This document shows, piece after piece, positions 8,346 to 12,711 of a DNA stretch of 64,000 nt. The first letter of the stretch is position 1; every line of letters begins with the position of its first letter. The stretch is from NCBI GenBank assembly GCA_019931185.1, contig JAINDK010000050.1:1-64000 (forward strand), in the 5' to 3' direction. The notes beneath the pieces were generated by a model. That model was not told where the DNA came from, did not search any database, and saw only the letters and a list, made by a program, of their open reading frames with translations. Made by a program: the position numbers and the translations under genes. Source of the DNA: Bryobacter sp. CoA8 C33 (GTDB taxonomy: Bacteria; Acidobacteriota; Terriglobia; Bryobacterales; Bryobacteraceae).

Positions 8346-8504
8346 GAGCCTGTTGAAAAAATCCCCTCTTGCCGATTTCAACCCTTTCACGGGGGTCAGC
8401 AAACCATTGCCAGCCCGCTGCCGATCGATTCTGGGCCGTTTGTGGGCCAAGAATTTTCAACTCGTGAGGCTGCTTTTCGAAACAGCGAGTTTTTCAACAA
8501 GTTC
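8346..8504. mobile_element. 159-bp inverted-repeat (MITE-like) element
   Basis: The left end GAGCCTGTTGAAAAA (8346-8360) and right end TTTTTCAACAAGTTC (8490-8504) are inverted repeats of 15 bases with two mismatches. Both ends are flanked directly by CTAG (8342-8345 and 8505-8508), as expected for a 4-bp target duplication. The interior is too short for a transposase. The GTTGAAAAA-type end resembles termini of several IS families (IS1182- or IS5-like), an inference from memory. The element interrupts the 3' end of the amidohydrolase pseudogene right after its AVLWDTPR text. It could be a non-autonomous MITE or the fused ends of a deleted IS. Confidence 0.65.
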
Positions 8505-9233
8505 CTAGGGGTATCCCATAGCACGGCCCGCTTGACGCCGTCGCTGACCGGCAGGCTGACAATCTCGCCAAGCTCCACCTCGGCGCTCTCCGGCGGATCC
8601 GAGCGGGCCATCACCCGTTCAGCCGGCACATGACGCAGAACCTCGAGCACTTGGTGCGGCATCAGGCTCGATACATCGAGCAGCAAGTTGGGACAGAGGC
8701 GGGCGGGGACAATAGCCTCGAGGTAACAAGTCGGGCCCCCGCGGTGGGCGACGCTCACGGGCGGCTCCGGGTATTGCCGCGCCACCGGGATCAGCAGCGA
8801 GGGCAGCGCGAACGTCGCACCAGAACCGGTATGGAACACGACCGGCAGCCGGTAATCGTTGGCGATGCCGAAGACCCACTCAGCCCGCTTGCCCATCGGG
8901 TTGAGCCCGGAGAACTGCGGCTGTATCTTGAGGGCGCGCAGCCCCCGCGTTTCCACGCACCGCCGGACCTCATCGCGAAAGCAGTCATCGGGCTGGTAAA
9001 GGTGTGGGGACATCGCGCCGGTGAAACGGTCGGGCCAGGCCCGGACCGCCGCGACAATGACATCGTGCTCGCGCCGCTCGTCCCCGACAACCGGGATAGG
9101 GGATCCGCAACTGGCGGTCGATGCCCGTGCGATCCATGTGGCGCAGCTTGTCCCCGGCAGTGGCTTCGCGGCCGCTGTGGCGAGCCCGCCCGAGATTGTT
9201 ATTTGAATCGAAAACAGAAAAGCCGCCGATCAT
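8396..9233 (-). pseudogene. Amidohydrolase (amidohydrolase_2-like), frameshifted and 3'-interrupted
   Basis: The N-terminal part (from ATG at 9233) reads GRARHSGREATAGDKL, then HMDRTGIDRQLRIPYPG. The family-like continuation (VVGDERREHDVIVAAVRAW, then PDRFTGAMSPHLYQPDD) lies in another frame. The switch falls at a GGG run at 9093-9095 (CCC in the sense strand); removing one base restores a continuous protein. The middle keeps LKIQPQFSGLNP and the C-terminal part ends VKRAVLWDTPR, where an inverted-repeat element takes over and adds about 35 unrelated residues. The start overlaps the stop of the upstream dehydrogenase by four bases (ATGA), showing former translational coupling. The gene is probably dead, unless the frameshift is a sequencing error. 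Confidence 0.75.
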
Positions 9234-10261
9234 AGCGCCGCGAGGATCTTTTCGGTCATCCGCGGGGTGCTGAGGTTGCCGCCCAGGTCGGCGGTGGCGT
9301 TGAGCGGGTCGGCCAGCACGGACTCGACGGCGCGGCGGATGCGCACCGCCGCGGCGAGGGAGTCCGGATCGGCGAACCACTCGAGCATCATCGCCACCGA
9401 GAGGATGGTAGCCACGGGATTGGCCTTGCCCTGCCCGGCGATGTCGGGGGCGGAACCGTGCGCGGGCTGGAAGACGGCCTGCGCATCGCCAATGTCGGCC
9501 GAAGGCGCCATGCCCATGCCGCCGACCGTGGCCGCCGCCAGGTCGGAGAGGATGTCGCCGAACATGTTCTCCGTCACGAGTACGTCGAAGCACTGGGGCC
9601 GTTGGACCAGGTACAGAGCCATGGCATCGACATAGATGCGCTCGGTCTCGACGCCGGGATAAGCGGCGGCAACCTCGTCGAAGACTTGGCGGAAGAAGGC
9701 CATCGACGGCAGCACGTTGGCCTTGTCGACAAGAGTCAATTTGTTACGCCGGCTTTGGGCGAGGCGGAAGGCGAAATGAAAGAGCCGCTCGGAGCCCGCG
9801 CGGGAAATGAGCATCTCGTCGCGCACGGCATCGGCGCCGGCGGCGCGCGGGCGCAGGCGGGTCGAGAACAAGCCCTCGGTCGACTCGCGGACCAGGACGT
9901 AGTCGATGACCGGGTTCTTGAGCGGGGAGTGAGCGGGATTGTAGATGCGGGTGGGGCGAACCCCGGCATAGAGACCGAAGATCTCGCGGATATCGATCTG
10001 CGGGGCCATCTCGCGGCCATCGGCCCAGCGCACATTGGGCAGGCCGGCGGCGCCCAGGAGAACAGCGTCGGCCTGACGGCAGATCTCAATGGTCTGTTGG
10101 GGAAGCGGATCGCCCTGGCGCAGGTACTCGCCGGCGCCGCAGGGCATCTCGAGGAATTCGAAGTCGAGCTCCGGCAGGGCGCGCAGGACGGCGAGCCCGG
10201 ATTCGATCACTTCGGGCCCGATACCGTCTCCCGGCAGGACCGCGATCTGCTTTTTCACCAT
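9230..10261 (-). CDS. Isocitrate/isopropylmalate dehydrogenase-family protein
   Basis: This 343-residue enzyme belongs to the beta-decarboxylating NAD(P)-dependent dehydrogenases (isopropylmalate, isocitrate, tartrate/malate). Motifs in order: GDGIGPEV (11-18), VRESTEGLFSTR (substrate loop), LVDKANVLPSM with the catalytic Lys, ENMFGDILSDLAA with the metal-binding Asp residues, and HGSAPDIAGQGKANP (cofactor loop). Length fits LeuB or tartrate dehydrogenase. Linkage to an amidohydrolase instead of leu genes suggests a catabolic oxidative decarboxylase, not leucine synthesis; this is inference. The ATG is preceded only by a weak AAGTG. Just 20 bp separate it from the divergent helicase gene, so both promoters must lie largely inside the coding regions. 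Confidence 0.85.
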   Translation of the reverse strand: MVKKQIAVLPGDGIGPEVIESGLAVLRALPELDFEFLEMPCGAGEYLRQGDPLPQQTIEICRQADAVLLGAAGLPNVRWADGREMAPQIDIREIFGLYAGVRPTRIYNPAHSPLKNPVIDYVLVRESTEGLFSTRLRPRAAGADAVRDEMLISRAGSERLFHFAFRLAQSRRNKLTLVDKANVLPSMAFFRQVFDEVAAAYPGVETERIYVDAMALYLVQRPQCFDVLVTENMFGDILSDLAAATVGGMGMAPSADIGDAQAVFQPAHGSAPDIAGQGKANPVATILSVAMMLEWFADPDSLAAAVRIRRAVESVLADPLNATADLGGNLSTPRMTEKILAAL

Positions 10262-10281
10262 AAGTCACTTAGTCTAACGGT

Positions 10282-12711
10282 ATGCGCCTCAACCCGCTGC
10301 AACAGCATGTCGTCGAGAACTGGAACAAGCCGCTGCTGGTGATGGCACCGGTCGGAACGGGCAAGACGATGGCGCTGGCGGCGCGGGCCGCGGCGGCGAT
10401 TGCGGGAGGCTTGGACCCGGCGCGGATGCTCTGTCTGAGCTTTACCAACCGGGCGGCGCGCGAGGTGGCGTCGCGAATTGGCGACCATGTGGAATGCTCC
10501 ACGTTTCATGCGCTGTGCGCGCTGATACTGCGGGCCGAAGCGCGGGTGCTGGGCCTGCCCTCGGACTTTGTGATCTATGACGAGGAGGACTGCGTCGAGG
10601 CGTGCTCGCGGCTGGCGCAGAAGTATCAGATCGAGTTTTCCGGGTCCTGGCCGAAGCTTTGCTACACGCTTTGGACAGCGATCAGTGACGGGCGGCTGGC
10701 GCGATATGAGTCGAGCGAGAAGCCGCGCGAGGTCTTCGAGCGGCGCATCCGGGAAAGCGGTTTGTGGGCAGCCTACCGCCAGCCGGAGCTTCACTTCCCA
10801 TCCCTGGCGGCCGACTACGTAGCGATGCTGCGGGACTCGCATGCGCTCGACTTCCCGGACCTGATCCTCGGGGTGGCAACGCTGTTCGAGGAGAACCCGG
10901 ACCGCTTGGCGTGGTGGCGCTGCCGCTACGACTGGATCCAGGTGGACGAAGTGCAGGACACCTCGCGGGCCGAGTACCGCATTCTCGACAGCCTGGCGCG
11001 GGAGCACCGGCAGTTGAGCTTCTTTGGCGACGTGGACCAGACGATCTATGAGTGGCGCGGCTCGGCGCCGCAGGAGATCTTATCGCGCTACAAGCACGAC
11101 TACCGGCCGGAGGTAATCCACTTTGAGGAGAACTTCCGCTCGACGAGGCGGATCCTCGAGGCGTGCGAGAAGGTAATCGTCTCGCACCCGCAGGCGCTGA
11201 CCAAGCGCATCATCGCCAAGGTGCAGCGGGAGGGCGAGCCCGTGCTGGTGAGGCCCTTTGTGACGGCGCGCGAGGAGTATGACTGGATTGCCGGGCAGAT
11301 CCGGGCCGACCACGAGGAGCACAAACTGGACTGGAGGGACATTGCCGTGCTGGTGCGGACGAACCATACGGCGCGGGACATCTCCGAGGCGCTCGAGCGG
11401 GCGGGCGTACCGCATGTGAGGGTGGAGGAGGAGAAGTTCTTTCAGCGGGCCGAGATCAAGGCGGCGATCGCGCATCTGCGGATCCTGCGCAGCAATCAGG
11501 AGTCGAGTGGGCTGTTGCGGTTCTTGCAGGTACCGCCGAAGGGGATTGGCGAGGCGACGCTGGCGAAGGTGAGTTCGCTGCCGCGGGAAGTGGGGCTGCG
11601 GCTGGGGGACATGTTGTTGCCGGGGACGCACGAGCAGGGCGAGCCCTTCGCGGCACTTCTGACGAAGCCGGCGGTGGTGGCCGATTGCGAGACGACGGGA
11701 TTGGATCTGAGTGTGGACGAAGTGGTGGAGTTGGCGGCGCTGAAAGGGGAGGAGGAGTTCCACCGGATCCTGAGGCCAACGAGGCCTGAGACGTGGGCCC
11801 GGGTCGAGGATGCGGCGAGCATTCATGGGGTGACGCGGGAGAGGATCGAGGCCGAGGGGGTGGAGCCGGAGCAGGCCTTCGCCGAATTTGCCGAGTTTGT
11901 GCGCGGGCACGTCGTGGTGGGGCACAACCTGGAAACCTATGACTGGCCGCTGATCCGGAGGCAGAGCCAGCGGGAGTTTGCCATCGCGGGGACGGGGGAC
12001 ACGCTCGAGATCAGCCGAAGGCTGCTCAAGCTGCCGCGCTACCGGTTGGAGAACGTCGTCGGAGCGCTGGGCCTGCCACTGCGCACAGCGCATCAGGCGA
12101 TGGAAGACGTCCGGATGACGGCCGATGTACTGGGGAAACTGCGGGAGATGCTAGCCCGGCACAGCGAGGAGCGGCGGCGGGTGGTGGCGCAGGCGGGCAA
12201 GCGCTTCGTGGAGCTGGCCGGGCAGGTAGCGGACTGGCGGGAGCGGAGCCGGAAGCAGAGCCCGGCCGAGACGCTGGACATGGTGCTTTATGAAGGTCTG
12301 TTGCTCGAATACTTCGGGCGGGACGAGGATGGCGAGGCGCGGCTCGAGCATCTCGAGGAGTTGCGGCGCATTGTGGGAAGGATGTCGTCGCTCGATGAAG
12401 CCCTCGAGGTGGCTTCGCTCGGGTTGGACCTCGAGCGGCAGTTGGGGGAAGAGGACCGGGTGAGGATCTTGACGGTGCATCAGTCGAAGGGGCTTGAGTT
12501 TGACACGGTTTTCGTGGCGCGGGCAGTGGAAGGAGAGTTTCCTTCGTGGCGGAGCTTGAAGGAAAACCGGCTGGATGAAGAGCACCGGCTATTCTATGTA
12601 GCAATCAGCCGGGCGCGGGAGCGGCTCTACGTGACATGGCAGCAGCGAGATGGCCGGGGGCGGAGCCAAGTGGCAAGCCGGTATTTGAAGGCCCTGCGGG
12701 TGGACAACTGA
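10282..12711 (+). CDS. UvrD/Rep-type helicase with embedded DEDDh 3'-5' exonuclease domain
   Basis: All SF1A helicase motifs are present in 809 residues: Walker A APVGTGKT (about 22-29), LSFTNRAAREVASRI (Ia), VDEVQDTSRAEY (II), GDVDQTIYEWRG (III), NFRSTRRIL (IV), LTVHQSKGLEFDTVFV (V) and FYVAISRARERLYV (VI). Between IV and V, at about 465-620, sits a full DnaQ/epsilon-like exonuclease: DCETTG (Exo I), GHNLETYDW (Exo II) and HQAMEDVRMT (Exo III), with all D-E-D-H-D catalytic residues. The protein can therefore be expected to unwind DNA and degrade 3' ends, probably in repair or recombination; the pathway is unknown. No adjacent nuclease, RecB or Gam-like gene was seen. A strong hairpin terminator follows. 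Confidence 0.85.
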   Translation: MRLNPLQQHVVENWNKPLLVMAPVGTGKTMALAARAAAAIAGGLDPARMLCLSFTNRAAREVASRIGDHVECSTFHALCALILRAEARVLGLPSDFVIYDEEDCVEACSRLAQKYQIEFSGSWPKLCYTLWTAISDGRLARYESSEKPREVFERRIRESGLWAAYRQPELHFPSLAADYVAMLRDSHALDFPDLILGVATLFEENPDRLAWWRCRYDWIQVDEVQDTSRAEYRILDSLAREHRQLSFFGDVDQTIYEWRGSAPQEILSRYKHDYRPEVIHFEENFRSTRRILEACEKVIVSHPQALTKRIIAKVQREGEPVLVRPFVTAREEYDWIAGQIRADHEEHKLDWRDIAVLVRTNHTARDISEALERAGVPHVRVEEEKFFQRAEIKAAIAHLRILRSNQESSGLLRFLQVPPKGIGEATLAKVSSLPREVGLRLGDMLLPGTHEQGEPFAALLTKPAVVADCETTGLDLSVDEVVELAALKGEEEFHRILRPTRPETWARVEDAASIHGVTRERIEAEGVEPEQAFAEFAEFVRGHVVVGHNLETYDWPLIRRQSQREFAIAGTGDTLEISRRLLKLPRYRLENVVGALGLPLRTAHQAMEDVRMTADVLGKLREMLARHSEERRRVVAQAGKRFVELAGQVADWRERSRKQSPAETLDMVLYEGLLLEYFGRDEDGEARLEHLEELRRIVGRMSSLDEALEVASLGLDLERQLGEEDRVRILTVHQSKGLEFDTVFVARAVEGEFPSWRSLKENRLDEEHRLFYVAISRARERLYVTWQQRDGRGRSQVASRYLKALRVDN

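Follow-up and report, generated by a model that had tools for sequence, protein, structure and literature searches.

SF1A helicase cores translocate 3' to 5' on ssDNA, their motors leaving the 3' end of the tracked strand behind them, and DEDDh domains take off 3'-terminal nucleotides. WRN is a helicase-DEDDh fusion, and in AddAB, RecBCD, and AdnAB the nuclease has a PD-(D/E)XK fold. For UvrD-type motors, the accessible text of a 2026 review describes (i) contact between subdomain 2B and the duplex as autoinhibitory, with relief by dimerisation or by partner proteins; (ii) a GIG motif that touches duplex DNA in the autoinhibited monomer; (iii) a cysteine of M. tuberculosis UvrD1, C451, that links the two 2B subdomains of the active dimer by a disulfide; and (iv) a swing of 2B by 130-160 degrees between states (PMC13238157).

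We analysed a window of 64,000 nucleotides from Bryobacter sp. CoA8 C33 (contig JAINDK010000050.1), in which an ORF with an ATG start (10282..12711, + strand, as are all features below) encodes a protein of 809 aa. Judged by its sequence, this protein is an SF1A (UvrD/PcrA-like) helicase that carries a complete putative DEDDh exonuclease at about residues 464-626. Pfam placed UvrD-helicase at residues 3-271 (E 4e-49) and UvrD_C at residues 279-788 (E 6e-83), both above cut-off, the latter as a single stretch that bridges an insert, within which RNase_T (PF00929) covers residues 465-617 (68 bits against a cut-off of 24). The helicase motifs, which we take to be I, Ia, and II-VI, are all detected, and motifs I-VI follow one another in order, with the Walker A and B residues in place. 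In a 72-row family alignment, motif I (Walker A, APVGTGKT, residues 22-29, 10345..10368) retains K28 and T29 in 72/72 rows, as motif II (Walker B, DEVQD, residues 222-226, 10945..10959) does D222 and E223; motif III (GDVDQTIYEWRG, residues 249-260, 11026..11061), Q253 and R259; motif IV (ENFRST, residues 283-288, 11128..11145), R286; and motif V (TVHQSKGLEFD, residues 731-741, 12472..12504), G737 and E739. The last of these ten conserved residues, R777 in motif VI (EEHRLFYVAISRARE, residues 766-780, 12577..12621), is found in 71/72 rows, the remaining row having an unread X.

The DEDDh (RNase_T/DnaQ-like) domain (residues 465-617, 11674..12132) has the PolC proofreading exonuclease domain 2p1j (E 4e-20) as its top sequence match among solved structures. 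In addition to the profile match, it holds all five residues of the class, namely D468 and E470 in Exo I (DCE, 11683..11691; 72/72 rows), D554 in Exo II (HNLETYD, from H548 and N549 to D554, 11923..11943; 71/72 rows, with V in locus L064), and H604 and D609 in Exo III (HQAMED, 12091..12108; 72/72 rows). Exo II is one residue longer than HNxxFD, a form common to loci L007-L017. An earlier note, made from the DNA alone, had claimed a helicase and a nuclease in one 809-residue chain with intact motifs; the Pfam domains, the readable motifs I-VI, and the five DEDDh residues bear this out, and the HMM search that it had suggested gave the coordinates of UvrD-type and RNase_T domains above cut-off. 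The note had also placed the nuclease inside the helicase, between motifs IV and V, which is correct and can be narrowed by alignment with PcrA to the interior of subdomain 2B.

The PcrA alignment runs through residue 431, breaks within 2B, and resumes at residue 638, which puts the insert past PcrA residue ~431 and ahead of ~457. The whole insert, a helical linker plus the nuclease, occupies about residues 436-632 (11587..12177), a span nearly absent from PcrA-type rows. Ahead of it lies the GIG motif of 2B (residues 421-423, 11542..11550), located by the PcrA and UvrD1 alignments, although a GxG in 2B is conserved in just 57/72 rows. Behind it, the second half of 2B extends from residue 638 to ~720 (12193..12441), as placed by the PcrA alignment and the whole-chain fold match. 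Further, K429, six residues past GIG, is paired with C451, the dimer cysteine of UvrD1, close to where the matched stretch ends and alignment confidence drops. Because the break adjoins both GIG and the C451-equivalent position, the nuclease appears to be joined to the motor at its regulatory face.

An AlphaFold model built with 30 family members (pLDDT 89.4, pTM 0.86) shows the 1A/1B/2A/2B fold of SF1A helicases, with the DNA-bound D. radiodurans UvrD 4c30_D as its top fold match (Z 41.0, 607 residues aligned, rmsd 2.9). The extent of this match predicts that 2B retains its fold around the insert. The model aligns with 1pjr, 1qhg, 3lfu, and 1uaa_B, which we take to be open forms, over 444-452 residues only, against 607 for the DNA-bound UvrD; 2B of the window protein is therefore predicted to be closed, as in a DNA-bound form, and to be intact around the insert. 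A fold search of BFVD gave no clear full-length counterpart among the 50 matches listed (best TM 0.50, rmsd 18.5).

A two-sequence alignment scan of 84,980 species genomes found 489 relatives; the analysis covered the best 80 of them, so that the family size given here is a lower bound. By NCBI names, these 80 comprise 27 Cyanobacteriota, 23 Acidobacteriota, 15 Bacillota, 4 Verrucomicrobiota, 3 Planctomycetota, 2 Bacteroidota (Kapaibacterium), 1 Ignavibacteriota, 1 Electryoneota, and 4 without a phylum. The 72-row alignment includes the window protein, omits nine truncated loci (L032, L070, L071, L076, L078, L079, L081, L082, and L083), and has L066 trimmed to 840 residues. All five DEDDh residues are kept in 71 of these 72 near-full-length rows, across eight named phyla, L064 being the sole row with a loss, which rules out a chance fusion or an assembly artefact. 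The inserted span measures 206-217 residues in the 72 fused rows versus 25-58 in 27 PcrA-type rows (27 of 30 plain-helicase loci, three having been missed by the ORF filter).

In a tree computed from helicase columns alone (the simple model LG+G4, near-duplicates dropped, 63 rows), 55 fused rows split from 8 PcrA-type rows at 100/100; the outgroup consists solely of PcrA-type proteins from the window's own phylum, L084, L069, and L080 are among the long branches, and L052 and L080 were flagged as joined. Since the fused rows separate without the insert columns, the simplest account is that the DEDDh domain was inserted once in the family's history. The window protein clusters with L007, L008, and L011 at 100/100. 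The nuclease showed dN/dS values of 0.14-0.40 in the 8 unsaturated pairs among 10 (both saturated pairs contain the window), exceeding the helicase N-half in 5 of the 8. A scan of viral contigs gave one weak relative, L087, in which a pattern search found no Exo I motif, and a single-protein scan of genome contigs returned 24 stretches with no relative among them.

We consider it probable that the window gene encodes a single-chain enzyme that unwinds DNA and resects 3' ends, and that this enzyme was recruited in cyanobacteria as the partner of a defence-type reverse transcriptase (RT). We infer both activities of the window enzyme, as well as their polarity, coupling, substrate, and pathway. 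The SF1A core (1A/2A) would be an ATP-driven motor that travels 3' to 5' along ssDNA, and the DEDDh domain in the regulatory 2B would take nucleotides off 3' ends. The insert comes directly after the helix that trails the duplex-contacting GIG; the UvrD1 counterpart of this helix bears the 2B-2B dimer contact. In the likeliest mode of action, rotation of 2B would both control unwinding and bring the nuclease to a 3' end, either at the ss/ds junction or close by. As the nuclease rides on a 2B that swings, coupling of unwinding and trimming through the position of 2B is likely, and the outcome would be unwinding coupled to 3' resection. Because an SF1A motor leaves the 3' end of its own track, the candidate 3' ends are the tail behind the motor, the opposite strand of a fork or gap, or, in RT-bearing loci, the 3' end of the cDNA. 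In the acidobacterium, the enzyme would work without a dedicated neighbour, alongside a separate PcrA-like paralogue; in cyanobacteria, where it would have been recruited beside a UG35 RT, it plausibly processes RT-made DNA or invading DNA.

The earlier note knew of no named, characterised family of this arrangement, while allowing for similar fusions in databases. A database profile does exist, RTasHel (PDLC03802), filed by PADLOC-DB under DRT, while the literature accessible to our searches on UG35, RTasHel, and UvrD-DnaQ fusions yielded neither a characterised enzyme nor a description of the layout, and likewise nothing on a domain inserted into SF1A 2B or on the family apart from its RT partner. 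The window protein matches RTasHel from residue 2 to 803 over model positions 5-668 of 675 (443 bits, a score for which no cut-off is supplied), its isolated nuclease fragment matching positions 382-528. The profile was matched by 30/30 members of a test alignment, and end to end, at 1,094 bits, by the Leptolyngbya protein L037, whose isolated nuclease fragment covers positions 382-545. On these profile matches, RTasHel and the fused helicase-nucleases are one and the same family, and the label suggests an RT association.

Consistent with this label, the same kind of protein directly adjoins the helicase gene in 13/28 cyanobacterial loci among the best 80 of the 489 relatives. This protein measures 1,018-1,174 aa in ten unbroken copies, lies upstream by 11-21 bp in six loci and downstream, overlapping by ORF calls, in seven, and in L041 matches RT_UG35 at 1,080 bits as well as Pfam RVT_1. 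No such gene adjoins in the 52 other loci of the best 80, as far as their flanks (some of them short) extend. A whole-genome search found a UG35 RT in 12/49 fused-gene genomes (L045 left out), namely in 12/25 cyanobacterial genomes and 0/24 others. Among 292 cyanobacterial genomes, UG35 is present in 4, the fused gene in 7, and both in 3, counts that include the centre genome G659, picked for having both genes; G877 has UG35 and no fused match at E 1e-135. Searches of the non-coding DNA 5' of the RT or helicase gene in 16 cyanobacterial stretches gave matches between near relatives and others of 44-55 bp at 75-85% identity, with no convincing candidate for an RNA partner.

The tree confines the RT adjacency to a single cyanobacterial clade and requires seven changes to account for it; the adjacency was therefore probably gained late and then lost or moved repeatedly. 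Moreover, in 3 of the 12 genomes with a UG35 RT, the RT is split or stop-bearing while the helicase-nuclease is intact. From this confinement and these broken RTs, the helicase-nuclease appears to be older and wider than its RT partner; this wider spread argues against calling a DRT system from the presence of the helicase-nuclease alone. In the window, there is neither an adjacent RT nor a UG35 RT next to the helicase gene. The earlier claim that no partner gene is visible thus holds for the window's genome and fails for relatives, given the adjoining cyanobacterial RTs. PF00078 has one match over cut-off in this draft genome (601 aa, on another contig) and one below it; we rejected the former as a UG35-type partner encoded elsewhere, since it looks, by eye only, to be of the group II intron type.

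The RT link also feeds the strongest rival to our reading, in which the protein is mainly an effector against phages or mobile elements, a helicase-nuclease module plugged into various defence loci, whose solo copy in the window works alone; we rate this as a serious possibility that falls somewhat short of an even chance. It draws on the filing of the family under DRT, on the RT adjacency and the restriction of UG35 to cyanobacterial carriers of the fused gene, and on a patchy distribution (the 7/292 cyanobacterial genomes above, chosen G659 included, and 28/250 genomes of the window's order, plus at least one truncated copy). It draws as well on other neighbours: a C5 methyltransferase occurs near L035 and L048, KilA-N proteins lie near L029 and L040 (below cut-off in L057), L086 has an OLD-TOPRIM and UvrD pair as in Gabija, and L064 has DUF4062 and Schlafen AlbA_2 neighbours; further, an AAA ATPase neighbours L031 and a DnaJ-TPR protein L060. 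These contexts hint at defence, but they come from single or few loci chosen by eye among 28 cyanobacterial and 35 other loci, many of the remaining loci being unremarkable, with no control rate. The phage records likewise tell against a chiefly defensive role, in that 51 had matches and none spanned 80% of the protein.

Within the order, full-length fused matches (at least 429 bits over nearly the whole profile) account for the 28 genomes, the truncated copy being in G462, and the next matches listed (393 bits or less) mostly stop near profile position 385, like PcrA-type proteins. Across the phylum sample, 2/396 genomes have a match at E <=1e-120, a threshold that more distant members would escape. 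In the window's genus, 7/8 genomes carry a full-length match, the exception being G443; L007-L011 are the same contigs as five of these genomes, so the two sets overlap. The seven genes around the window gene encode, by Pfam, PSD1, DUF1501, two amidohydrolases, Iso_dh, an outer-membrane beta-barrel receptor, and an oxidoreductase, with no defence context among them; Iso_dh and the outer-membrane beta-barrel protein directly flank the window gene. Iso_dh lies beside the fused gene in G000, G411, G580, G582, and G532, and the outer-membrane protein on its other side in the first four of these and in G577, whose contig ends short of the Iso_dh side. Neither neighbour was found in the genus member G413, and Iso_dh was absent as a neighbour from 14 stretches from other genera; in GC-rich surroundings, however, ORF calls cannot be relied upon, and the flanks of several loci are short. 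Retention in nearly the whole genus amid metabolic genes, with the Iso_dh neighbour in five genomes, is at odds with a chiefly defensive effector.

The same retention, with its conserved neighbour, speaks for a second rival, slightly less credible to us than the first, that the protein is a housekeeping enzyme of repair or replication restart, like bacterial ExoDinG or WRN, which trims 3' ends during unwinding. Trimming of 3' ends is a frequent step in repair. ExoDinG, in the accessible text of its report, is a precedent for a single chain that combines a DEDDh domain with a helicase (PMC11981726). A housekeeping role sits poorly, however, with a full-length copy in only 28/250 sampled genomes of the order and with the links to RT and other defence-type genes outside Acidobacteriota. 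Identity with the housekeeping PcrA is itself ruled out, as the window genome has its own PcrA-like gene at another place on the contig and the PcrA/UvrD/Rep equivalog of NCBIfam is reached at best with 368.8 bits against a cut-off of 911.2. That the insert serves only a structural or regulatory purpose and catalyses nothing, blocking 2B-2B dimerisation for example, is very improbable in view of the five catalytic residues kept in 71/72 members, even though the insert adjoins the helix aligned with the dimer contact and L064 has lost D554.

We thus favour the single-chain unwinding and 3'-resecting enzyme. A more elaborate history, in which a once-only DEDDh insertion at the duplex and dimer face of 2B converted an autoinhibited SF1A motor into a self-contained, 2B-gated machine for unwinding and resection that later became an interchangeable module, solo in some bacteria and, in cyanobacteria, paired with a UG35 RT whose DNA product, or else the DNA of an invader, it would process, strikes us as speculative and, taken whole, unlikely. 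The control of UvrD-type helicases by 2B is debated, and a family with a nuclease at 2B offers a natural, built-in probe of it; the family is also a concrete candidate partner for UG35 reverse transcriptases.

Among known systems, RTasHel is the same family, its model containing the nuclease stretch, and differs in its setting, since no RT adjoins the gene in the window and the family extends well past RT-bearing cyanobacteria. PcrA, UvrD, and Rep share the motor motifs and the 1A/1B/2A/2B fold (21-36% identity in structural alignments), whereas they have no nuclease, and the tree sets PcrA-type rows apart from the fused ones at 100/100. Like AddAB, RecBCD, and AdnAB, the window protein joins an SF1A motor to a nuclease, and its fold matches include AddA, RecB, and AdnB; those are, however, multi-subunit enzymes with a C-terminal nuclease, whereas the window protein is one chain with an internal DEDDh domain, stops 29 residues past motif VI, and has no PD-(D/E)XK Pfam match at E up to 1. 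GajB of Gabija is also a UvrD-like helicase of a defence system and matches in part (244 bits), but the best stretch of this top match, residues 2-411, ends short of the nuclease, and no GajA-type OLD gene was found by Pfam among the seven scanned neighbours. ExoDinG (B. subtilis DinG type) likewise unites a DEDDh exonuclease and a helicase in a single chain, as its accessible description states (PMC11981726), but with an SF2 XPD-like helicase and an N-terminal nuclease, whereas the window helicase is of the UvrD type (SF1A) and its nuclease is internal, within 2B. Measured against the literature accessible to us, helicase-DEDDh fusions and the uncharacterised RTasHel profile are already known, and what is new is the insertion of such a nuclease into the 2B subdomain of an SF1A helicase.

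In the window, the start codons of the Iso_dh gene (minus strand) and the helicase-nuclease gene (plus strand) face each other at 10261-10282, separated by 20 bp, and the corresponding gaps are 40 bp in L168 (a stretch on the same contig as L007) and 39 bp in L171 (on the same contig as L011). Given such short gaps between facing starts, the promoters of both genes probably overlap coding sequence. The nearby amidohydrolase gene (8396-9235, minus strand) carries an apparent frameshift, since the match to its relative in L008 divides between two frames, with the junction near 9093-9100; this appears to be an assembly error or the mark of a pseudogene.

Among the cyanobacterial reverse transcriptase (RT) partners, the RT is split by about 1.5-1.8 kb in loci L029 and L037 and contains three stops in L036, with the adjoining helicase-nuclease intact in all three. 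In genome G877 (locus L158), the UG35 RT is present, and no match to the fused helicase was found at E 1e-135. Upstream of this RT lies a 272-aa gene (L158:55-873) that matches RNase_H_2 weakly (E 7.5e-4, under the cut-off) and may encode a separate exonuclease partner.

A near-full-length relative from Acetoanaerobium noterae (L188; 32% identity, 98% covered) lies in an unannotated stretch of NZ_CP154629.1, a 2.6-Mb record that, though labelled a plasmid, looks like a chromosome.

DnaJ-domain proteins adjoin the helicase-nuclease in two Bacillota (L060:3138-4601, by Pfam; L050:2-1270, judged by eye), and in G319 the gene divergent from the fused one (L006:2713-5415) resembles a RecB-type nuclease on visual inspection alone. 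DUF4062 and Schlafen AlbA_2/Fic-like genes lie directly downstream in L064 (10400-12609), the sole aligned member without the Exo II aspartate, and in Nostoc spongiaeforme the fused helicase is followed by a Gabija-like pair, comprising an AAA_15/OLD-TOPRIM protein and a UvrD helicase (L086:10590-14091).
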